Shown here one piece after another: positions 4,175 to 38,633 of a stretch of DNA of 42,447 nt (the stretch's first letter is position 1; each line of letters begins with the position of its first letter). The translations under genes and the position numbers were made by a program. Source of the stretch: Clostridia bacterium. Its GTDB lineage: Bacteria; Bacillota; Clostridia; JAQVDB01. The DNA lies in NCBI GenBank assembly GCA_028698525.1, contig JAQVDB010000010.1, forward strand, positions 1 through 42,447. The letters are read 5' to 3'. Under the pieces are notes generated by a model. The model was not told the origin of the DNA. It did no database searches and saw only the letters and a program-made list of their open reading frames with translations.

Positions 4175-5200
4175 TTGTATTTATTCATTCCCGAAACGGT
4201 ATATTTTGAACCTGAGGCCTTAGATTATCCCCTTGGAGCAAAACTATATGAGTATTTTTTTAAAAAAGACATACCTATTTATAAGACAACTTCCCATAAC
4301 AGGGTAACAGGTATCAAGGGGGATTCAGAAGTAGAAAAGTATTTGCATTCTAAGCGTACACTTGTGGTAGGAGTTAAAAAAACCATGAAACTAGAACCAT
4401 GCAGACCTTCAGCAGACTACAGCTTTTCCCTGACCACCGGTTGTCCTGCCCATTGTGAGTATTGCTACTTGCAGACTACAATGGGTAAAAGACCTTATAT
4501 CCGAATTTATGTAAATCTAGATCAAATATTGGGGACAATACAAAAATACATTCAAAAAAATTTTCCCCAAAAAACCACTTTTGAAGCAGCAAGTTCATCA
4601 GATCCTATTGCAGTAGAACATTTTACCGGTTCAATTGCAAAAACAATAGAATTCTTTGCAAATCAGCAGCAGGGCAGATTGAGGATAGTAACTAAGTTTG
4701 ACAATATAGACTCCCTCACAAAAATAAATCATCAGGGCCATACCAGATTTAGGTTCAGTATAAATTCAAATTATGTTATAAAAAACTTTGAACATAGTAC
4801 ACCCAGTATTGAACAGAGGATACAAGCAGCCAAGAAGATAGCCCAAGCTGAATACCCCTTGGGCTTTATAATAGCTCCTATCATGATATACGACGGATGG
4901 GAACAAGAATATACGAATATGTTTAATCAATTGAAACATAATATAGATTTTTATTCTAAAGATAATTTAACTTTTGAACTGATTCAACATAGATATACGC
5001 AAAGCGCAAAAAGAATAATACTAGAAAGGTTCCCAAAAACAAAGCTGGAGATGGATGACCAATCCAGGTCAAAAAAATGGGGTAAATACGGAAAATATAA
5101 ATATGTCTATCCTGCTGACAAATCAGATGACATAAAACAATATATAAGCATATTGATAAAAGAAAGATTCCCAAACAGCATTATAGAATATTTTACCTAA
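4175..5200 (+). CDS. splB: Spore photoproduct lyase
   Basis: A 341-residue radical-SAM DNA-repair enzyme that reverses the spore photoproduct (5-thyminyl-5,6-dihydrothymine) to two thymines during germination. The cluster-binding C90-x3-C94-x2-C97 motif (CPAHCEYC) lies at the same residue numbers as in Bacillus subtilis SplB. The radical-relay tyrosines Y96 and Y98 are kept, as are TRFRFSIN and the C-terminal FELIQHR...W.KY..Y region. The odd point is the catalytic H-donor region. Where Bacillus enzymes read FEAAC-TSD, this protein reads FEAAS-SSD, so the key Cys is Ser140; C76 is the only other nearby cysteine. The start is TTG with AAGGAGG 7 nt upstream. It is monocistronic and converges on the rhomboid gene with only 14 nt between stops. 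It is firm evidence that the host forms endospores. Confidence 0.95.
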   Translation: MYLFIPETVYFEPEALDYPLGAKLYEYFFKKDIPIYKTTSHNRVTGIKGDSEVEKYLHSKRTLVVGVKKTMKLEPCRPSADYSFSLTTGCPAHCEYCYLQTTMGKRPYIRIYVNLDQILGTIQKYIQKNFPQKTTFEAASSSDPIAVEHFTGSIAKTIEFFANQQQGRLRIVTKFDNIDSLTKINHQGHTRFRFSINSNYVIKNFEHSTPSIEQRIQAAKKIAQAEYPLGFIIAPIMIYDGWEQEYTNMFNQLKHNIDFYSKDNLTFELIQHRYTQSAKRIILERFPKTKLEMDDQSRSKKWGKYGKYKYVYPADKSDDIKQYISILIKERFPNSIIEYFT

Positions 5201-5214
5201 ATAAAACTTCCATC

Positions 5215-6267
5215 CTACTCTAATCTTTCCAGTATTTGTCGAGCCTCGCTCAATTCAGGATTGTATTTTAATGCATTTTCAAAGGATTGTTTAGCCTTTT
5301 GTACATCGCCTTCATCGATATAAATCCACCCTAATGTATAATATGCAGGTGCATATTGCTGATCTATTTGAATTATTTCCAATAATTCTGTTTTTGCGGT
5401 TTTAGGATTGCCTTGGGCATAATAAGTAACTCCCAGTACATATTTAGCCCTTAAGTTTTGTGGGTCATCCTTCAAAATGCTTTTAGCATATTTTTCTGCT
5501 TGCTCTAAATCTCCTGCCTCATAATTTTCAACTGCTTGCTCAAGAGCAATATGATAGGAATTTTGGTTTAACCCGAACATAAAGGTTCCCCATAAAATAA
5601 TAAATGTAACTAAAATAAAAACTACCTTCTTTAAGTTTATACCTTTTTCATCTTTTAAACCAACAGCTGCTGCTGCAAAAAATCCAGCTAACAACCCGCC
5701 AATATGCCCAAAATTATCAATTCCGCTAGTAGTAAAACCGATAAAAAGGTTTATGCCTATTATTAAGTATAAATTTATCCCAAATATCCTTCTGAAAACC
5801 TCTTTTTTATTAATGCCAAAATAAATAAGGGCACCCATCAATCCAAATATGGCTCCAGATGCACCTGCTGACATATTTTCGGTGAAAGCAAAACTTAAAA
5901 GGCTGCCTCCTATACCTGCTATCATGTATATAAAAACAAATTTTCCACTTCCAAAAAGCAGCTCAACTATCGGCCCAATATTATATAATGCATAACAATT
6001 GAAAACTAGATGCATTATCCCTACATGCAAAAAAATGGGAGTGATAAGGCGCCAATACTCACCTGTAGATATGAGTTGATTAACTTTTGCTCCAAATTTT
6101 ATCAACACTTCAGTGTTAGTAGAGCCCCCTGAAAGTGTCATCAAAATCCATATAATAATATTTGTCCATATAAAAAAATATGTAACCTTAGGCTTTGGAA
6201 AACGGGACGCCTTATTCTCTGATACTACTTGGCCCTCATATACAGTATTATCATCATTGTATTCCAC
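5215..6267 (-). CDS. Rhomboid-family intramembrane serine protease with C-terminal TPRs
   Basis: A 350-residue membrane protein. A short cytoplasmic N-terminus leads into a six- to seven-helix rhomboid core (about 27-230). The core has the HxxxMHLxFN motif (HVGIMHLVFN), the catalytic serine in GASGAIFG and the catalytic histidine in FGHIGGLLAG. It cleaves membrane-spanning substrates within the bilayer. The last 100 residues are two to three tetratricopeptide repeats (AYYTLGWIYIDEGDVQKAKQSFENAL), as in B. subtilis GluP. The start is GTG with GGGAG 8 nt upstream. It follows the aminotransferase gene by 19 nt and so is probably the third gene of an Lrp - aminotransferase - rhomboid operon. Substrate unknown. 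Confidence 0.9.
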   Translation of the reverse strand: MEYNDDNTVYEGQVVSENKASRFPKPKVTYFFIWTNIIIWILMTLSGGSTNTEVLIKFGAKVNQLISTGEYWRLITPIFLHVGIMHLVFNCYALYNIGPIVELLFGSGKFVFIYMIAGIGGSLLSFAFTENMSAGASGAIFGLMGALIYFGINKKEVFRRIFGINLYLIIGINLFIGFTTSGIDNFGHIGGLLAGFFAAAAVGLKDEKGINLKKVVFILVTFIILWGTFMFGLNQNSYHIALEQAVENYEAGDLEQAEKYAKSILKDDPQNLRAKYVLGVTYYAQGNPKTAKTELLEIIQIDQQYAPAYYTLGWIYIDEGDVQKAKQSFENALKYNPELSEARQILERLE

Positions 6268-8625: not shown

Positions 8626-8657
8626 CGAAAAAAAATCTCCTTGTCAAGGAGATTTTA
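8626..8657 (-). terminator. Intrinsic terminator after the LysM/GH18 gene
   Basis: On the minus strand ATCTCCTT (complement of 8646-8653) pairs with AAGGAGAT (complement of 8635-8642) around a 3-nt loop, followed by a run of eight Ts. The stem includes the last bases of the stop region of the GH18 gene. Confidence 0.85.
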
Positions 8658-9941
8658 TCTAAGTTTTTTGATTTTAAACATGGCATCTAATACTTCCCAA
8701 TTTTGTGGGAACGACTGTCCTAGTACCCAATAACTTACCCCTCTCAGGCCGTATTGATTCACTAGCCTAAACTTAGCCATAACGCTTCTTGCATCTTCAA
8801 ACCACACAACATGTTGTATACCGGAAGTATCGGTATAATAAAAATAAGGTGATTGAGCAGTGGTATCATAATTTATATAAACCCCATATTTAGCTGCAAT
8901 CTGTAGAGCTTCTTGAGGACTTACCCTCCTAGCCCATCCCCCACCCGGAGTGTAGGGCAACGGCCAATCATATCCATATAAAGGCATGCCCATCATAATC
9001 TTTTGAGGCGGAATAACAGATACTGCATAATTTATCACCTTTCTTACCTCATCTATAGGAGCTACAGCCATTGGTGGTCCACCCGACCAACCCCATTCAT
9101 AAGTCATTATTATCACAAAATCCACAATATTGCCATGGGCTTGATAATCATGTGCCCCATGCCATGCACCTACTTTTATATCATATGGTTTAGGTGCCAA
9201 TGCTGTGGAAACGATGTAACCTTCCCTATGCAGCCTTTGAGTAACTTTTCTCAAAAAATCATTATAAAGCTGACGGTCCTCTGGAGGGATCCTCTCAAAA
9301 TCTATGTTCAAACCATAATAATTTTTATTTTTTATTACATTTATTACATTGACTATAAAATTATTTATCGCATTATTATCCGTTAGAAGATCATGTACCA
9401 AGTCCGCATCAAAATTTCCATTCCTAAAATTAGTCACAACCAGCAAAGGGGCAATATTATGTCTAGCCGATTGTTCCAATATCGTCTCATCCTTCAAGGC
9501 TATAAGGCTGCCATCCCGGTTTACCCTATAGCTAAAAGGGCTTATATATGTGAGATATTGTCCCACATCATCTACTATTCTCTTATCCAATTCAACACTT
9601 ATAGGCTCTATATAGCCATTGACTTCTATCTCTCCAAAGGCATCCCCTGCTCCCGGAATCAATATTTTCATCCCGGGATAAATAAGGTCTGGATTGGATA
9701 TATTATTCAACGCAACTATGCTGCTTACAGTTACATTGAATTTCCTGCTTATTGACCACAGGGTATCTCCTGGTTGAACGGTATATATTTGCCCTTGGGT
9801 CGGTATTACAAGCGCCTGCCCAGGAATCAAATATGGTATATCCTGCAGTAGGTTGGCTTCCACTATCACATCGATAGCCACACCATATCTGTTTGAAATG
9901 GACCATAAGGAATCCCCTGGTTGCACTACATATATTTCCAA
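8655..9941 (-). CDS. sleL: LysM-containing GH18 spore-lytic glucosaminidase (SleL/YaaH type)
   Basis: A 428-residue enzyme with two N-terminal LysM peptidoglycan-binding repeats (about 1-48, VVQPGDSLWSISNRYG; about 51-100, TVQPGDTLWSISRKFN). A glycoside hydrolase 18 barrel follows, with the catalytic strand YGLNIDFERIP (Asp and Glu of DxxDxDxE) and the MTYEWGWSGGPP motif. The domain order and length match SleL/YaaH, which cleaves spore-cortex muropeptides during germination. There is no signal peptide, also usual for SleL. The start is a TTG with AAAGGCGG 9 nt upstream; upstream in-frame codons run through that ribosome site. It is divergent from the antiporter gene and ends in its own terminator. 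Confidence 0.92.
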   Translation of the reverse strand: MEIYVVQPGDSLWSISNRYGVAIDVIVEANLLQDIPYLIPGQALVIPTQGQIYTVQPGDTLWSISRKFNVTVSSIVALNNISNPDLIYPGMKILIPGAGDAFGEIEVNGYIEPISVELDKRIVDDVGQYLTYISPFSYRVNRDGSLIALKDETILEQSARHNIAPLLVVTNFRNGNFDADLVHDLLTDNNAINNFIVNVINVIKNKNYYGLNIDFERIPPEDRQLYNDFLRKVTQRLHREGYIVSTALAPKPYDIKVGAWHGAHDYQAHGNIVDFVIIMTYEWGWSGGPPMAVAPIDEVRKVINYAVSVIPPQKIMMGMPLYGYDWPLPYTPGGGWARRVSPQEALQIAAKYGVYINYDTTAQSPYFYYTDTSGIQHVVWFEDARSVMAKFRLVNQYGLRGVSYWVLGQSFPQNWEVLDAMFKIKKLR

Positions 9942-10200
9942 GTAAATTACCCGCCTTTCTCGAACCAAATTACCCTAATTTACTGCATTCTGAAAACGCC
10001 TGATTTTTTCAAAATTAGTTTAGGGTCAAATACTAAAATTTATTTTAAGATTTTTCTCTTGGTAACAATATATTCATATAAGCAGGAATTTGATATTGAT
10101 TTTCCATAAAAACAATTCTATATGCTCATTTGATTTTATTTGTTTATATAATATAATAACAGATAGTCGAAAATTAATATGGTTGAGGGGTTAATATAGA

Positions 10201-13334: not shown

Positions 13335-16160
13335 ATGCTTTCGCGGCTTAAACTTATATATATACCACTAATCTGCATCATCATACTTTTATCTTGCTGC
13401 TCCTATAATCCATACACATCTGTATCCATTACCAATAGCCAACTTGAACAATATCGTCAGATGATATACCATAAGGATTTTATCAAACCAGAGGTTTTGA
13501 ACACTAGAAACGTCAAAGGACAAATAAGAGTATATATAAAAAACAATTCCGATGAGACAATTGAATTTTCAGAGATATATTTAGTTGATCCACGTTCCGT
13601 CCAAACCTGGTATAGCAAAACTGATGCTGAAATAAAGTGCTCTTATCTAAAAAATCAAGAAATACAAACAGAATTGGATATCACAAATAATATAGACTGT
13701 ATTGAATACTGTTCTATTCAGCCGGGTGGCGTTGAAATAATAACATATCCTTGGAATATTACTACACATGAAATACTGTTCGATCTAGATGAGAATAAAA
13801 TAACCTCTTACGATCAATCCAGTCTTGTATATAGATACTATACAAGAAAAGAAAAAAATATTCAAACTTCTAATTCAAGGATACAGATTATCGCAAAACA
13901 GGTGATAGGAAATGCTGATAATTCTTTAGAAAAGGCGAAAAGCATTTATCACTTTATAAAGCAAAATATAGAATTTAGGGAATCTGATAAGGATAGAGAT
14001 GCAGTATACACGCTGAACGCCAAACATGGCAATTCCACATCAATCTCCCATCTGTTCGCAGCCATGACAAGGTATGCCGGAATACCTTGCAGGATTATCA
14101 CCGGCTTTGCACCTCATGAAGATGGTGGCTTTACAACACAAAGATGGAATGAAATATACTTTAACGAGTATGGTTGGGTACCTGTAGACGTAGCATGTTC
14201 AATAAAGAATAATAGGGACTATTTTGGCTACATGGATGCTTTCCATGTAGCAGCATGTTATGGAGGGTATTCATATGAATCTCATGATTTGGACGTGTCT
14301 TTTGAGTTAAATTATGACACTCCTTATAATACTATAAAATCTGAGCAACACCTCGCTCAACCTCAGTTATCCAACAAGCGAAAAACAACCGGCATGCTAC
14401 AAAGAACTATATATTTTAATGATAGCCAAAAACGAGATAAATCAACGGTATATCTACCTTTTGTAGAATACAATGCTGACTCAAAACAGCATACCAATTT
14501 GTTGGGCACAAACAAAGAGTTTAAAAAATTCAAAGGCGATGTATCTATGCTCGGAGGGAATAGCATAAAAATGGATCCATGCACCCTTCTCAAAATATAT
14601 TCCTTTGATTTGCAGAATAATACTGATAACATCACCATTGCAGACCAATTGGAGTTTATCACCTATGACCTGACTTTTGATCTAAATGCTGATAATGTGA
14701 AAAATTATAATAAAAACAGTGACTTATATATTTTTTACACTAGAGAAGAACCTCTTATACAAAAAAACCACGATAAAATTATAGAAACAGTTCAAGAAAT
14801 TATAAAGGACCAGCAAAACCCTATAATAAAATCCAAACTTATATTTGATTATATGATTGAAAACATAGATATCCATCCAAACAGTTCTGCAGAAGATGGG
14901 GCTGTTGAAACCCTAAATATCAAGCAAGGAAATCAGCTTGATATATCATTGCTTTTTTGTGCTTTAAACAGAGCAGCCGGAATACCTGCTCGTATTATAA
15001 CAGGTCTGATACCCACTAATGGCAAATTTGTATATCATAACTGGAATGAAATTTACTTCGAAAATTATGGATGGGTTCCTGCAGATGTATATATAAGCAA
15101 ATTATATAGGGATGAATTTTTCGGAAATATAGATAACAAACATATATCCTTGTATTACGGATATAATGATGTGTTGAGTAAGGATGATATATCAATAGAC
15201 ATAAATTTTATACATACTCCTTCACAAAAAAAGATAACCTCAGAATATAATCAGATGAAAGATAAATATATTCAACCAGAAATTTTAAATACAAAAAAAA
15301 TAAATGCAATACATACATTATATATAGATAACGTTTCAGGCCTGCCATTAAAAAATGTAGAGATTTTCAATCCTTCATTAGAAAGCAGCGATTCATCATA
15401 CAGCAAAATAACAAGAAAGCAAAAATATCATGAATATGAACTGTTTGAAGGAGATACAGAACTGTTTTGTTATGACAAAATGATTTTTGACCCGTGTACT
15501 AAAATAGAAAAATTGAAGTATGAAAAAATAGATGAAAACTTCAAAAAGCAGATAGTAGAAAAACTGGATATTCAATTGAGAGAAATAAAGTTCTGTCTGG
15601 ACAAAGATATCGTCACAGATTATGATAAAAGTTCAGAAATATACAGAGTCTATACACAGCCCGGAAACCTAATAGAATGCAACCATCCTAAAATAATAGA
15701 ACTAGCTGATAGCATAAAAGGCGAACTTAAAAATCCACTGTCCATATGTAAAAAAATATATCAATATATCGTGGACAACATGGAGTATAAAACAATGTAT
15801 CAGGAAAAGGGCGCCCTTTACGCCTTAAATACTAAACAAGGTGATTGCACAGAATACTCTACCTTATTTGTAGCCCTAGCCCGTGCGGCAGGTATACCGG
15901 CTAGAGAGGTATACGGACAAACACTTGAACCGGACGGTAAGCTAGGCGGGGGACATGCTTGGGCAGAAGTATATTTCAACGAATATGGTTGGTTGCCAGT
16001 TGATCCTACTTGGGGACAGGGACTGAATAAAGACTACTTCGGTTATATGGATGACCGCCATATAATTTTCTCCCACCAGAGTTATCTTCAGCCTTATTCT
16101 CACCAGGGCCAGATGGAAAATTCCCTCTCAATCAATTTTGAAATAGAGCTTGTAGAATAA
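13335..16160 (+). CDS. Lipoprotein with three transglutaminase-like units, only the last with a catalytic triad
   Basis: A 941-residue secreted protein. The N-terminus is a lipoprotein signal (hydrophobic stretch, lipobox L-L-S-C, lipidated Cys about 21). It is built of three repeats of about 300 residues, each a beta-rich part followed by a transglutaminase/protease-like domain. Unit 3 has the full triad: Cys838 in KQGDCTEYSTLF, His874 in GGGHAWAEVYF, Asp890 in WLPVDPTW. Unit 1 reads KHGNSTSISHLF and TTQRWNEIYF, so Cys is Ser and His is Gln. Unit 2 reads KQGNQLDISLLF, so Cys is Gln, with His and Asp kept. The unit starts are also alike (KPEVLNTRNVKG and QPEILNTKKINA). It could cut or crosslink peptides at the cell surface; the dead units may bind substrate. 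The start is the ATG 9 nt after AGGAG; a TTG three codons earlier abuts that site. Single gene, own terminator. Confidence 0.9.
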   Translation: MLSRLKLIYIPLICIIILLSCCSYNPYTSVSITNSQLEQYRQMIYHKDFIKPEVLNTRNVKGQIRVYIKNNSDETIEFSEIYLVDPRSVQTWYSKTDAEIKCSYLKNQEIQTELDITNNIDCIEYCSIQPGGVEIITYPWNITTHEILFDLDENKITSYDQSSLVYRYYTRKEKNIQTSNSRIQIIAKQVIGNADNSLEKAKSIYHFIKQNIEFRESDKDRDAVYTLNAKHGNSTSISHLFAAMTRYAGIPCRIITGFAPHEDGGFTTQRWNEIYFNEYGWVPVDVACSIKNNRDYFGYMDAFHVAACYGGYSYESHDLDVSFELNYDTPYNTIKSEQHLAQPQLSNKRKTTGMLQRTIYFNDSQKRDKSTVYLPFVEYNADSKQHTNLLGTNKEFKKFKGDVSMLGGNSIKMDPCTLLKIYSFDLQNNTDNITIADQLEFITYDLTFDLNADNVKNYNKNSDLYIFYTREEPLIQKNHDKIIETVQEIIKDQQNPIIKSKLIFDYMIENIDIHPNSSAEDGAVETLNIKQGNQLDISLLFCALNRAAGIPARIITGLIPTNGKFVYHNWNEIYFENYGWVPADVYISKLYRDEFFGNIDNKHISLYYGYNDVLSKDDISIDINFIHTPSQKKITSEYNQMKDKYIQPEILNTKKINAIHTLYIDNVSGLPLKNVEIFNPSLESSDSSYSKITRKQKYHEYELFEGDTELFCYDKMIFDPCTKIEKLKYEKIDENFKKQIVEKLDIQLREIKFCLDKDIVTDYDKSSEIYRVYTQPGNLIECNHPKIIELADSIKGELKNPLSICKKIYQYIVDNMEYKTMYQEKGALYALNTKQGDCTEYSTLFVALARAAGIPAREVYGQTLEPDGKLGGGHAWAEVYFNEYGWLPVDPTWGQGLNKDYFGYMDDRHIIFSHQSYLQPYSHQGQMENSLSINFEIELVE

Positions 16161-16164
16161 AAAC

Positions 16165-16184
16165 AGGCTCTTTTTTTAGAGCCT
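16165..16184. terminator. Bidirectional terminator
   Basis: AGGCTCT (16165-16171) pairs with AGAGCCT (16178-16184) across a 6-nt loop, with A/T runs on both sides. It lies between the convergent transglutaminase-lipoprotein and phosphoglucomutase genes, whose stops are 22 nt apart. Confidence 0.85.
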
Positions 16185-32111: not shown

Positions 32112-35099
32112 CTAAACCCTGCTATTTAACTTCTCATAAGTCTCAACCAGCATATACTCCATAAGGGCATTCTTGAACTGCTCATCATCTAAAACACGGG
32201 TAAAAAATGCCTGGTTCTGGTCCATCCTATCGATGACTTTATTGATAAATACTTTTTCAAAAGCAAATCTAAAATCATCAATGGTATTTGTCCTAGCCTT
32301 TTGTACCAGATCCTCATCTGCGGCAAAATCCTCTTTAATCTGCTCTACCGATAACTGGTCGGCTTTTGTAAAGTCAGTTCCAAACCGCTTGTTAAGCCGC
32401 TCAATAATGGTGGAAAGATATTCTTCCTGTTCTTCCTTTACTCCCGTTCCTGCAAATTTCACAGATGTGACTGGTACATTTTCATCATCAAGAGTTAAGG
32501 AGATGCTGCCTTCAAATGTCTTTTTAGTAGTATAGTATTCCAAAGCGATTTCATCTGCCAGATGAACAGTGGAGCCTTTTTCTTTGGGCAGTTTTTTAAG
32601 CAAATATGTTAAGTATACATATAACTTGTGGAGTTCAACATCTTCAAAAGGCGTGATCTGCAGGATGAAGGAATAAAGCCTTATGTATTTGGTTGCTTGA
32701 CTGCTAAAATCCTGCTTATCTTGCTCATCCAGCTTCTTAAACCTTTCTACGGCTGTATCTATTAAATGATTTAATATAGCCCTGTCTTTTGGAGGTTTTT
32801 TGTCCTTTGGTTTGAAGTATATACCATTAAACCTGTCCAATTCCTCTTTTAAATACACACCATATACATGCAGCCCTGTTTCAATATCATAAAGCAGGTT
32901 AGGTTCCGTCACTTCTTCCACAATGGTTGCCTGATAATAAGGTTTGAAGGCTTCCTGAATATCTTCTGCCCTATTTACAAAATCAAGGACAAAGGTATCA
33001 TCTTTTCCAGAACAGGTTCTGTTAAGCCTTGATAAAGTCTGCACCGCCTTGACGCCGGATAACTTTTTATCTACATACATAGTATGTAAAAGGGGCTGGT
33101 CAAAGCCTGTCTGGTACTTTTCCGCAACTAAAAGCACCTGATATTCATCAGTAGCAAAACGGTCTGGAAGTTCTGATTCTTTAAATTTGTTTATGCCGCT
33201 TTCAGTATACTCTATCCCGTCATCCTTTACCGTTCCCGAAAAGGCTACCAGTGTTTTCATATCCCTGTAGCCTTTCTTTTTGATATATTCATCAAAAGCG
33301 TGTTTATAACGTACAGCATGAAGCCTGGAACTGGTTACAACCATTGCCTTGGCCCTTCCTCCTATTTTATGCCTGGTTACGCTCCTGAAGTGTTCCACCA
33401 TGATTTCAGTCTTTTGGGCAATGTTATGGGGATGAAGGCTAACATATCTTGTAAGTGCTTTTGTGGCCTTAGCCTTGTCAAAAGCAGGGTCATCTTCTAT
33501 TTTCTTTGCCAGTTTAAAATAGGTTTCATAAGTTACATAGTTTTGAAGTACATCTAGTATAAATCCTTCTTCAATTGCCTGCCTCATAGAGTATAAATGA
33601 AAAGGATGGGGCAGTTCATCTTCATCTACAGTCCCAAACATCTCAAGGGTCTTTGCTTTAGGTGTAGCCGTAAAGGCAAAAAAACTGATATTAGGCTGTT
33701 TTCCCCTTTTCTTTATTGTCTTTAATATCTCTTCATCCGGGTCGTATTCTTTGCCTTCCAGCTCTTCATCCAGTCTTGCTGCTTCTTCTAGGCTGTTTGC
33801 TGACAGCACTTCCCTCAAAGATGCCATATTCTCCCCTGCACTGCTGGAATGGGCTTCATCTATAACAACAGCATATTTTCGGCTTTCTAACTCTCCCGCC
33901 TTTTCGATGATAAAGGGAAACTTCTGCAAAGTGGAAATAATTATCCTCATTCCGCTTTTCAAGGCATCAGCCAATTGACTGGAATCTTTATCTATTTTTT
34001 GGACAACTCCATGTTTATGCTCCAACTGGTAAATACTGTCCTGCAACTGTCTATCCAAAACCCGCCTGTCGGTAATCACAATAACCGAATCAAATACAGG
34101 GTTGTCTTGATGATCATGAAGGTTAGCGAGCCTGTGGGCAAGCCATGATATAGAATAGGTTTTTCCCGATCCTGCGCTGTGCTGTACAAGATAGTTTGTT
34201 CCTACTCCCTTCTCCTTCGCATCGGCTTCCAGTTTCCTTACTGCATCCAGTTGGTGATACCTTGGAAATATAACGGTTTCCAAGGTTACGGTATTTCCAT
34301 CTATATCCTTCTTTTCTTGGGTCTCTATAAATACAAATCTTTTTAATATATCCATCAAACTATCTTTTTGAAGTATCTCCTCCCAAAGATAAGCAGTTTT
34401 AAACCCATCAGGATTGTCGGGATTTCCACCTCCTCCATCACACCCTTTATTAAAGGGCAAGAAGAAAGTCTTATTTCTTGAAAGCCTTGTTGTCATATAG
34501 ACTTCTTGAGTATCAACTGCAAAAAATACAATGGCTCTTTTCTTAAACTGGAACAACAGTTCATTAGGGCTTCTGTCTTTCTTATACTGCATGATTGCAT
34601 CTTCATAGGTTTGACCGGTGAAAGGATTTTTAAGTTCCAGTACAACAACGGGAAGGCCATTGACACAGATCAGCATGTCAATGCTGTTTTCGTTTTTGGT
34701 GCTGTATCGTACCTGCCTAGTAACAGATATACGATTCTTTTTGTAAAGTTTCACTACTTCATCGTTTAATTTGCTGGCAGGCTGAAAGTAGGCAAGGTCC
34801 AGGTATACTCCATAGTCTTTAATCCCATGCCTTAAAACATCAATCATCCCACGGTTGTTAAGCTCTCTATTTAACCGGCTTAACACTTTAAACCGATACT
34901 GGTCCTTATAAATTTCTCTTAGCCTTTCCATTTTCTTGGGCTGGGTATCCTCTAAAAAGTCAAAAAGGATTTTGGTATCAAGGGCAAATTCTTTGTTATA
35001 GTGGTCAGGGTTACCCCTCACGTATCCAGACTTTAAAAGATACTCCTCAACATATTCCTCAAAGCCCTTTTCTAAAAGTTCTTCTGGAGTTTTAGCCAT
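32112..35099 (-). CDS. hsdR: Type I restriction enzyme R (motor/nuclease) subunit
   Basis: A 995-residue HsdR. The N-terminal PD-(D/E)xK nuclease is seen as D141 (SIDMLI) and E155-x-K157 (LELKNP). The superfamily-2 helicase motor has Walker A at 307-314 (HSAGSGKT), DEAH at 414-417, FTATP, and motif VI-like QTLSRLNR. The C-terminal helical part (DUF3387-like) contacts the methylase. With HsdM and HsdS it cuts foreign DNA lacking the methylation after ATP-driven translocation. The start ATG has AAGGGG 7-9 nt upstream. It is the last gene of the hsdM-hsdS-hsdR operon, 26 nt after hsdS. All catalytic motifs are intact. Confidence 0.96.
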   Translation of the reverse strand: MAKTPEELLEKGFEEYVEEYLLKSGYVRGNPDHYNKEFALDTKILFDFLEDTQPKKMERLREIYKDQYRFKVLSRLNRELNNRGMIDVLRHGIKDYGVYLDLAYFQPASKLNDEVVKLYKKNRISVTRQVRYSTKNENSIDMLICVNGLPVVVLELKNPFTGQTYEDAIMQYKKDRSPNELLFQFKKRAIVFFAVDTQEVYMTTRLSRNKTFFLPFNKGCDGGGGNPDNPDGFKTAYLWEEILQKDSLMDILKRFVFIETQEKKDIDGNTVTLETVIFPRYHQLDAVRKLEADAKEKGVGTNYLVQHSAGSGKTYSISWLAHRLANLHDHQDNPVFDSVIVITDRRVLDRQLQDSIYQLEHKHGVVQKIDKDSSQLADALKSGMRIIISTLQKFPFIIEKAGELESRKYAVVIDEAHSSSAGENMASLREVLSANSLEEAARLDEELEGKEYDPDEEILKTIKKRGKQPNISFFAFTATPKAKTLEMFGTVDEDELPHPFHLYSMRQAIEEGFILDVLQNYVTYETYFKLAKKIEDDPAFDKAKATKALTRYVSLHPHNIAQKTEIMVEHFRSVTRHKIGGRAKAMVVTSSRLHAVRYKHAFDEYIKKKGYRDMKTLVAFSGTVKDDGIEYTESGINKFKESELPDRFATDEYQVLLVAEKYQTGFDQPLLHTMYVDKKLSGVKAVQTLSRLNRTCSGKDDTFVLDFVNRAEDIQEAFKPYYQATIVEEVTEPNLLYDIETGLHVYGVYLKEELDRFNGIYFKPKDKKPPKDRAILNHLIDTAVERFKKLDEQDKQDFSSQATKYIRLYSFILQITPFEDVELHKLYVYLTYLLKKLPKEKGSTVHLADEIALEYYTTKKTFEGSISLTLDDENVPVTSVKFAGTGVKEEQEEYLSTIIERLNKRFGTDFTKADQLSVEQIKEDFAADEDLVQKARTNTIDDFRFAFEKVFINKVIDRMDQNQAFFTRVLDDEQFKNALMEYMLVETYEKLNSRV

Positions 35100-35125
35100 T
35101 TAAATTCACCCCTTATATTTTTAAA

Positions 35126-36448
35126 TTACTCTACTGCATAGTCCCTTACATCAATTTTACCTGTTACTGCTTCAGAGATAAGGGATTGGCGGTATTCTTT
35201 GAGTTTTTGGATTTGTAGTCTGATTTTTGATATTAAACCATCTATTTCAGCAGTTTTAACATTTATAAAATCTATTATTGATTTTTGTTCATCTAATGGT
35301 GGAATAGGTAATTCTAATTTTTTTAATGTATCCGTATAAATAACATCTATAGTAGTAGCATTACTTTCTAACTTAATTTTGTTTGTCACTATATTTGTAC
35401 TATTAAATATTATATTCACATACTCATTGCAAACCCTATCTGGATTTAATGTAATTTTTATTAAACAAGGATGTAATATTCCTCTATCTGCATTTTTAGG
35501 CATAATAGCAGTTTTTCCTACAGTTCCTCTTGTAGTTACCAATATATCGCCTGCAAATACTTCAAACGCTCTTAATTCTTCATACTTATAATTTTCTATA
35601 TAATAATCTCCAGAATTAAAATCATTATCTAAAACTGTTCTTTGATTATATACCTTAACATCCCCACTAATCATATCATCATTTTTTAATTGACTTCCGA
35701 AAGGACCTGCTTTTATAGAATATTTTTTAGGGCTTAATAAATATTTCATCTTGACAATATCCCAATGTTCTGGTATCTCCCCTATCCACTCAATACCTGA
35801 ATTCTTCAGCCTAACATTCGGATTAAGTCCTTTGGTAACGGTTTCAGTTATAATCGCCTGCCGCTTTTCCTGCAGCAGTTCAATCAATTTTTCCTTATCA
35901 GCAATCAAATCATCTATTTCACTAGTTTTATGGTCAAGAAAATTGGCAATGGCGATTTGTTCCTTTTTGGGAGGCAAAATTGATAGTAAATTACTAACAT
36001 CTGTAACTGTAACTGCTTCGAATGTACTACCTTTAGATTTAATAAAAAGTTCTTCTAGGCTAACATTCATGCTATACCATAAATACCTTACTTGAACTTT
36101 ATTTGCCGTAACTGCACAGAGTCCTCTTCCTATGCCATATACTCTATCAGATATATTCATTGCTCCAACAGGAGCCCTTACAGAAAGAAGTATATCATTG
36201 ATTTTTGAAAATTTATTAGCAGTATTACAATACATTTTAGGTATTGGATGCAAACTAGTAAATTCTGCATTTCCTTGTAAAAATGGCAATCCTATTTCAT
36301 CAAGACTACATTTTTCTGATTTAGGAGATTGACCCATTGTAATGTTAGATATATGCTTTAATTTTTTAACCTCCCAATGCTCTGGTATCTCCCCTATCCA
36401 CTCAATACCTGAATCCTTATACCTTTCATACCTCTTATACTTACTCAT
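35126..36448 (-). CDS. hsdS: Type I restriction enzyme specificity subunit
   Basis: A 440-residue HsdS of two tandem halves. Each half starts with the same segment (SGIEWIGEIPEHW), then a variable target-recognition domain, then a conserved coiled-coil spacer (FLDHKTSEIDDLIADKEKLIELLQEKRQAI in half 1; FINVKTAEIDGLISKIRLQIQKLKEYRQSLI in half 2). It sets the two-part DNA target of the complex. The two recognition domains differ, so the target is asymmetric. At DNA level the half starts share a 46-bp repeat. The start ATG overlaps the hsdM stop by 4 nt (ATGA), so translation is coupled. Confidence 0.95.
   Translation of the reverse strand: MSKYKRYERYKDSGIEWIGEIPEHWEVKKLKHISNITMGQSPKSEKCSLDEIGLPFLQGNAEFTSLHPIPKMYCNTANKFSKINDILLSVRAPVGAMNISDRVYGIGRGLCAVTANKVQVRYLWYSMNVSLEELFIKSKGSTFEAVTVTDVSNLLSILPPKKEQIAIANFLDHKTSEIDDLIADKEKLIELLQEKRQAIITETVTKGLNPNVRLKNSGIEWIGEIPEHWDIVKMKYLLSPKKYSIKAGPFGSQLKNDDMISGDVKVYNQRTVLDNDFNSGDYYIENYKYEELRAFEVFAGDILVTTRGTVGKTAIMPKNADRGILHPCLIKITLNPDRVCNEYVNIIFNSTNIVTNKIKLESNATTIDVIYTDTLKKLELPIPPLDEQKSIIDFINVKTAEIDGLISKIRLQIQKLKEYRQSLISEAVTGKIDVRDYAVE
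35761..35806. repeat. 46-bp direct repeat within hsdS, copy at the second half
   Basis: It matches 36373-36418 in 44 of 46 bases (differences at the 8th and 43rd). It encodes SGIEWIGEIPEHW at the start of the second recognition half. The spacing is 612 bp, a multiple of three. Confidence 0.9.
36373..36418. repeat. 46-bp direct repeat within hsdS, copy at the first half
   Basis: Partner of 35761-35806, in the same orientation and reading frame. Recombination between the copies would delete one recognition domain in frame. Confidence 0.9.
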
Positions 36449-38463
36449 TCACCCATCACCTTCTTCAACTTCTCTGAAATGCTCTTTTCCAGTTCCACAA
36501 TCTCTTTCATAATCTCTTGAGAAGGTCTTAGGGGCTGGTATTTATAAAAATGTCTTGTGAAAGGTATTTCATATCCAATTTTAGTCTTGCTTTTGTCTAT
36601 CCAAGCATCTAGCACATGGGGTTTTACTTCCCGCTCAAAGTATTCATGTATATCTTCTTTTAAAGGTACATTTTCAGTATCCCTCAAGTCCGGGTCTGGC
36701 TCTGGGTTTCCCTTGCTGTTTACACAAATATCTGCTGTTTCATCTTTTTCGGACAAGGCAGATAATACAACCTTTAAAAGTGTTCTATTCAGTTTAATAT
36801 CGCTGTCTTTAAAAGCCTTCTTTAACGCTTTTGTAAATGCATCCCTGTTTTTATATGTGATAGTAGAATCCATTGTCTTTAAGGTATCTATTATTTCTTT
36901 CTGAATTTTCTTGCCTTCCTCTATTTCTTGAAGCCCTGATTCACCTTTTTTCTTTGACTTTGCTAGATTATTAAAGGCTCTTTCATTATATAAATTATTA
37001 ATTCTTTCTTCAGTTACTTGCAAATTAAGCCTTAAAGGTCTCTCTACTACAATCTTCTGATATCCGAAATCTTGGTTATCAAAAATCTTGCAGTATTCAT
37101 TTTCTCTAAACTCACCGTATATTCTAGTGATCTCTTTTATCTGCTCTTCGCTGATTTCATTTCTCTTGTTTCCAAGGCTTTTCCTCATTTTCTGATAAAA
37201 ATCCACTGCGTTGACCAACTGTATTTTTCCCGTCCTTACAGGTCCCTTCATAGGGTCACTGTTCTTACGGTTGGTTACTATCCAAATATAGGTAGAAATA
37301 CCTGTGTTGTAGAATAACTGGTCAGGCAGTGCAATAATACCTTCCAGCATGTCATTTTCAATTATCCAGCGTCTGATTTCCGATTCCCCTGAACCTGCAT
37401 CCCCAGTAAATAACGGTGAGCCGTTGAAGATGATAGCGATACGGCTGCCCTTTTCATCCTGCCTCATTTTAGACATTAGATGCTGTAAGAATAAAAGTGA
37501 ACCATCGGATATTCTAGGAAGTCCTGCACCGAACCTCCCCTCATGACCTTCTTTCTCATATTCTTCACGAATAAATTTCTGTGCTTTTTTCCATTCCACA
37601 CCAAAAGGGGGATTAGTAAGCATATATCGGAAAGTTTCGCTTTTATGTCCATCTTCCGTGAAACTATCTCCCAGAATAATATTATCTGCATTATGTCCTT
37701 TTATAAGCATATCGGATTTACAGATGCTAAAGGATTGGGGATTTATCTCCTGCCCAAATAATTCTACCTGTATCCCGGGGTTTAATTCTTTCATATAATG
37801 TTCTGTAACCGAAAGCATACCACCTGTACCAGCGCAGCAGTCATACACAGTTGTGACAAGCCCTGGCTGGGTTAATTCCTCATTATCCTCGTTCAGGAGA
37901 ATATTTACCATTAATCTTATAACCTCACGAGGAGTATAATGATCACCTGCTTCCCCATGTTCAGAAAATCGTCTAATGAGTTCCTCAAATATGTATCCCA
38001 TTTCGGTATTGCTTACTACATCAGGATGCAAATCTATCTTGTTAAACTCTGATATCACTAAGTAAAGCAGGTTGTTATCATTGAGTTTTGTAATCTGCTT
38101 GTCGAAATCAAAGTGTTCTATGATTTCTCTAGCATTTTTGGAAAAACCGTTAATATAATTTCTTAAATTGCTTGCTATATTATCGGGGTCAGCCAATAAT
38201 TTTTCAAAATCATATTTGCTGGTATTATTGAATTCCTGTTTTGAAATTCTATTTAAAACAGGGTCTACATTTTGAAGTCCCGACTTCTTTAAAGTTTCAT
38301 ACTTTTCCAATACTTCCTGCTTGGTGGCTGCAAGGACACAGTCAAACCTTCTGAGTACAGCCATAGGCAGTATTACATCACCGTACTGTTCTTTTTTATA
38401 TGGTCCTCTTAAAAGTTCCGCTATGCTCCATATAAAGTTAACTTTATCCTGAAAATTAGTCAA
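36445..38463 (-). CDS. hsdM: Type I restriction enzyme modification (methylase) subunit
   Basis: A 672-residue N6-adenine methyltransferase, longer than the ~520-residue E. coli type and fitting the large HsdM class. The N-terminal helical domain (NFIWSIAELLRGPYKKEQYGDVILPMAVLRRFD) is followed by the SAM site DCCAGTGGM (about 208-216) and the catalytic NPPF (about 284-287). A long C-terminal extension includes EYFEREVKPHVLDAWID, which contacts HsdS. The start chosen is a TTG (38463) with GGAG 8 nt upstream; a GTG three codons earlier overlaps that site. It leads the operon and overlaps hsdS by 4 nt. To its right the DNA is decayed. Confidence 0.95.
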   Translation of the reverse strand: MTNFQDKVNFIWSIAELLRGPYKKEQYGDVILPMAVLRRFDCVLAATKQEVLEKYETLKKSGLQNVDPVLNRISKQEFNNTSKYDFEKLLADPDNIASNLRNYINGFSKNAREIIEHFDFDKQITKLNDNNLLYLVISEFNKIDLHPDVVSNTEMGYIFEELIRRFSEHGEAGDHYTPREVIRLMVNILLNEDNEELTQPGLVTTVYDCCAGTGGMLSVTEHYMKELNPGIQVELFGQEINPQSFSICKSDMLIKGHNADNIILGDSFTEDGHKSETFRYMLTNPPFGVEWKKAQKFIREEYEKEGHEGRFGAGLPRISDGSLLFLQHLMSKMRQDEKGSRIAIIFNGSPLFTGDAGSGESEIRRWIIENDMLEGIIALPDQLFYNTGISTYIWIVTNRKNSDPMKGPVRTGKIQLVNAVDFYQKMRKSLGNKRNEISEEQIKEITRIYGEFRENEYCKIFDNQDFGYQKIVVERPLRLNLQVTEERINNLYNERAFNNLAKSKKKGESGLQEIEEGKKIQKEIIDTLKTMDSTITYKNRDAFTKALKKAFKDSDIKLNRTLLKVVLSALSEKDETADICVNSKGNPEPDPDLRDTENVPLKEDIHEYFEREVKPHVLDAWIDKSKTKIGYEIPFTRHFYKYQPLRPSQEIMKEIVELEKSISEKLKKVMGE

Positions 38464-38633
38464 GCTTATCACTCCAGTGTGTTTTTTCTATCATCAGTAT
38501 GTATACACAAAATTATATCACTTATGTTTAATATTCTATATTTTTTCAGGTTTTCCTTTTCAATTTGCTTCTTACAAAATTGTTTTGCTGTAGTATGTCT
38601 CTTATGGCATTTATTTGATAGCAATAGTTTTGT

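Follow-up and report, generated by a model that had tools for sequence, protein, structure and literature searches.

How does a predicted surface protein work when it carries three units of the transglutaminase-like superfamily, in which both peptidases and cross-linkers occur, and when two of these units are devoid of the catalytic nucleophile? This question is raised by a gene found in a stretch of 42,447 nucleotides from a Clostridia bacterium (contig JAQVDB010000010.1, assembly GCA_028698525.1), hereafter called the window. The data presented below are most safely read as pointing to a surface enzyme whose outermost unit is active and whose two membrane-proximal units are pseudoenzymes.

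The gene and its three units

The open reading frame (13335-16160) encodes 941 amino acids, from an ATG at 13335 to a TAA at 16158-16160; the features of the gene are collected in Table 1. Since the genes on either side lie on the opposite strand and a terminator-like hairpin directly follows the stop codon, it is probably transcribed alone. Its neighbours encode a UPF0047 protein, a PCC-domain protein and a phosphoglucomutase, none of which hints at a function. Elsewhere in the window are found a type I restriction-modification locus, with HsdR, HsdS and HsdM in a row (32112-38472, minus strand), and a rhomboid membrane protease whose C-terminus bears TPR repeats (5215-6267, minus strand); a spore photoproduct lyase (4175-5200, plus strand) and a LysM-glycosyl hydrolase 18 protein (8655-9968, minus strand) indicate that the source organism is probably a spore former.

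Table 1. Features of the gene and of the encoded protein; residue numbers of the triads count from the ATG at 13335
Feature	Position	Strand	Remarks
Whole open reading frame with TAA stop	13335..16160	+	AGGAG ribosome-binding site upstream of the ATG
Predicted lipoprotein signal peptide	13335..13397	+	lipidation cysteine C21 at 13395-13397; MLSRLKLIYIPLICIIILLS-C compared with the PROSITE PS51257 pattern
Unit 1 (U1), beta-sandwich and transglutaminase core, predicted catalytically dead	13401..14330	+	
Transglut_core of U1	13890..14189	+	S234 (14034-14036), Q269 (14139-14141), D285 (14187-14189)
Unit 2 (U2), predicted catalytically dead	14331..15233	+	from sequence comparison
Transglut_core of U2	14787..15086	+	Q534 (14934-14936), H568 (15036-15038), D584 (15084-15086)
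Unit 3 (U3), triad intact, predicted active	15234..16157	+	
Transglut_core of U3	15699..16007	+	C838 (15846-15848), H874 (15954-15956), D890 (16002-16004)
Terminator-like hairpin	16165..16184	+	5 bases past the stop codon

The N-terminus displays two basic residues (R4 and K6), a hydrophobic stretch and the sequence LLS-C21; LLSC at residues 18-21 presumably agrees with the PROSITE PS51257 lipobox pattern, and the genome encodes both Lgt (PF01790) and LspA (PF01252). The protein is therefore a probable lipoprotein, as a first-pass annotation of this DNA had proposed, with lipidation predicted from the signal sequence.

The remainder of the chain is composed of three tandem units of 301-310 residues, each consisting of a beta-sandwich and a Transglut_core domain. 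Pfam detects PF01841 three times (whole-protein E-value 5.5e-80), with scores of 94, 80 and 105 bits for U1, U2 and U3 against a curated gathering cut-off of 23; no domain other than the transglutaminase domains was returned by Pfam, and no name by a search of NCBIfam. In this genome, which is 97% complete, the protein is the sole PF01841 protein and its three units are the sole PF01841 matches. The pairwise identities amount to 37% for U1-U2 (98/263), 37% for U1-U3 (104/284) and 32% for U2-U3 (84/260), and the alignment scores (350-402) lie far above those of shuffled sequences (mean about 39, s.d. about 6, maximum 69; z > 50), so that the three repeating units of about 300 residues recognised at first sight are confirmed by both approaches. 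Internal duplication is the simplest reading of this arrangement; the duplication must be old, given that the units are just 45-47% identical in DNA, a value that also rules out a misassembled repeat.

Active sites and predicted fold of the units

The Cys-His-Asp triad is present in U3 only; at the same places U1 carries Ser, Gln and Asp and U2 carries Gln, His and Asp, and the assignment made in the first-pass annotation coincides exactly with the aligned triad columns. The motifs surrounding the triad are altered as well in U1 and U2, where GDC-EY has become GN(S/Q)--I, HAWAE has become xxWNE and DPTW has become DVAC or DVYI, while U3 retains the DPTW and HAWAE surroundings found in active relatives. 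Catalysis by the replacement residues, namely the Ser of U1 with Gln in place of His or a Gln nucleophile in U2, was considered and rejected, as to our knowledge no such chemistry exists in the transglutaminase-like superfamily. U1 and U2 are thus predicted to be catalytically dead, and U3, judging from its triad and the motifs around it, is predicted to be active.

The loss of the active site did not involve the fold-defining positions (GIP, R, W-E-Y, YGW-P-D, F), which are retained in both U1 and U2. Among the columns conserved in 52 Cys-bearing relatives, 32 also show the family residue in U3; the residue of U3 recurs at 25 of these in U1, and likewise at 25 in U2. At the variable columns the agreement is 55/217 for U1 and 50/210 for U2 (p about 1e-8 and 4e-9, respectively, by Fisher's test); the difference argues for a fold that has probably been maintained in the two dead units, even if part of the retention may predate the loss of catalysis.

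AlphaFold2 models built from 60 aligned sequences gave a pLDDT of 83.6 and a pTM of 0.85 for U1, and a pLDDT of 86.1 and a pTM of 0.87 for U3. The modelled unit is composed of an N-terminal beta-sandwich followed by the transglutaminase core, with an additional last strand past the core in U3 (unit residues 298-307). The top structural match of both models is PDB 3isr, followed by TgpA, TglA and the animal transglutaminases; in its predicted fold U1, the most decayed unit, thus agrees with the intact U3. A fold common to the three units, which the first-pass annotation had left to be checked by structure prediction, is therefore borne out by the models for U1, while for U2 it is indicated by the sequence, which aligns over the full length of the other units at 32-37% identity.

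Relatives and known systems

Relatives with one unit occur widely among bacteria and archaea, those of Bathyarchaeota being the closest to U3 by sequence among the matches listed. They were retrieved by unit-level alignment; a scan of the species collection with the whole protein returned no relative. Multi-unit homologues were found neither among the 80 best matches of the bacterial and archaeal species collection nor among the matches listed for some 770 additional genomes from the phylum of the source organism (two samples of 391 and 399 genomes with a slight overlap, at most five candidates scored per genome, matches inspected by eye for two in one frame), none of the genomes compared being closer than class to the source genome; no match was found in the viral contigs searched. 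Two sets of apparent multi-unit matches were rejected: in the phage record MT837774, all three units align to one and the same 630-base stretch and there is no tandem array, and three long reading frames of 1116-1307 residues (genomes G395, G479 and G441) carry one transglutaminase unit behind BNR-like repeats.

The catalytic Cys is absent in 8 of the 142 aligned domains, namely in U1, U2, five spirochaete proteins and one Woesearchaeota protein. In the tree U1 pairs with U3 (59/83) and U2 drifts towards the dead spirochaete proteins, a placement which is probably due to long-branch attraction; a single clade of U1, U2 and U3 is neither proved nor rejected (p-AU 0.355). The terminal branches of U1 (1.80) and U2 (1.83) exceed that of U3 (1.10) in length, a difference to be expected when the catalytic constraint is lost and the structural constraint is kept.

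Within the transglutaminase-like superfamily (Transglut_core, PF01841), the curated cut-off is exceeded by each of the three units, and U3 bears the Cys-His-Asp triad; what sets the protein apart is the presence of three units per chain, two of them without the nucleophile. Over nearly the whole unit, the best match of U1 and U3 (TM 0.60-0.65) is 3isr, a putative cysteine protease from Cytophaga hutchinsonii, which however has one unit and is 15-17% identical to them; no published function for it was found in the literature searched. The same unit build, with a core identity to U3 of 39-45% in the best matches, is encountered in proteins of Bathyarchaeota, Bacillota and others (L064-L070, L144-L146), which differ in having one unit with an intact triad (the third residue being Asp or Glu) and, as partner domains, a membrane helix, SLH repeats or BNR-like repeats. 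In eight Bacillota loci (L005, L006, L036 and L042-L046) the triad Asp is replaced by Glu (C-H-E), and in L005 and L006, the two inspected over their whole length, C-terminal repeats resembling S-layer homology domains are present. Three large Bacillota proteins (L175:3920-7393, L176:4461-7808 and L177:4229-8149, minus strand) combine BNR-like repeats and one transglutaminase unit with C-terminal domains resembling the N-terminal repeats of copper amine oxidase; in L175 and L177, a gene for a large subtilisin-like protease directly adjoins the transglutaminase gene on the same strand.

Transglutaminase domains without a nucleophile are by themselves well known. In the five spirochaete proteins mentioned above (L071, L074, L105, L125 and L130), the catalytic Cys is replaced by Ala, Ser or Pro in all members seen, so that they apparently form a conserved dead family; His and Asp are kept, one unit lies behind two IPT/TIG domains, which Pfam detects in L071 and L074, and an active copy is absent from the chain. 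In polymorphic toxins, inactive transglutaminase domains found beside the signal peptide have been proposed to act as a peptide-binding anchor of the toxin (PMC3482391), and in RloB an inactive transglutaminase is combined with seven transmembrane helices (PMC12239564); both resemble U1 and U2 in being exported dead domains, but the former are linked to toxins, the latter is joined to a membrane domain, and neither is paired with an active unit from its own family. Neither layout is found here: Pfam detects no RHS repeats and toxin domain after a dead domain, and as to the Transglut_i_TM/RloB type, a seven-helix fusion beside an ATP-grasp gene, there is no Pfam match and the neighbours differ. 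Erythrocyte protein 4.2 (EPB42) is a catalytically inactive PF01841 member as well (PMC10318531), but it is a single animal protein with one dead core in an unrelated setting.

Dead and live transglutaminase units in tandem in one chain are not described in the open-access literature searched, and the remark of the first-pass annotation that the graded layout belongs to no recognised protein holds for the literature and the genomes searched. What is new is the triple graded layout, seen in one genome; dead transglutaminase domains in bacteria were already known. Common as such domains are, a chain that holds dead copies beside a live one permits a direct test of whether the substrate of the live unit is also bound by its pseudoenzyme sister.

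Proposed working and alternative explanations

The reading that we prefer, with a probability of about 0.5, is that of an extracytoplasmic enzyme, a cysteine peptidase or a transamidase, in which two pseudoenzyme units that serve in peptide binding or as spacers bear a distal active unit. The lipid anchor would adjoin the dead U1-U2 pair, with U3, the sole unit with a full triad, at the distal end; U3 would employ the acyl-enzyme chemistry of its superfamily, as a cysteine peptidase or a transamidase of proteins, and its substrate would be a protein of the cell surface or the extracellular space. Having the fold without the nucleophile, U1 and U2 might bind polypeptide or neighbouring envelope structures, keeping U3 off the membrane and close to its substrate. 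The binding or spacer role of the two units is suggested by analogy, and the earlier proposal that dead units became binding or scaffold domains appears reasonable in the light of the parallel published for the polymorphic toxins (PMC3482391).

A plain stalk, in which U1 and U2 would be folded beads that bind nothing and serve to lift U3 through the cell wall, fits the data nearly as well as substrate binding does, and we regard it as a possible, if tentative, explanation. The order of the units (anchor, dead, dead, active) and the short linkers between the folded units are those expected of such a stalk, and so are the loss of active-site residues with retention of fold residues and the non-conservative character of the replacements around the former active site (Ser and Gln for Cys); on the other hand, a stalk has no need of a peptide groove, simpler repeats would do, and His and Asp are retained in U2. 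We assign lower probabilities to regulation and to simple decay. According to the latter, all three units would once have been catalytic and two of them would now be drifting in the present lineage with no new role, as might be suspected from the absence of the pattern in any of the relatives found and from the faster evolution of U1 and U2; the lack of stop codons in these units does not speak against it, because the downstream unit enforces an open frame. We nevertheless consider decay unlikely, as at 32-37% identity U1 and U2 still hold most of the fold residues (GIP, YGW-P-D, W-E, F) with variable columns about 24-25% identical, and U1 still folds confidently in silico. Less probable again is the packing of U1 or U2 onto U3 in order to switch or inhibit it; pseudoproteases regulate paralogous active partners, and such control is typically encountered where dead and live paralogues stand in tandem in one chain.

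Beyond the preferred reading of an active unit borne by two pseudoenzyme units, it may be speculated that two copies of a catalytic unit became dedicated substrate-binding modules by stepwise loss of residues, in which case the stages from enzyme to binding domain would be displayed within one surface protein; we consider this doubtful. Around the old active site (U1 residues 231-289), U1 and U2 have 12 positions in common, against 4 and 6 with U3, which would fit a single dead ancestor that was then duplicated.
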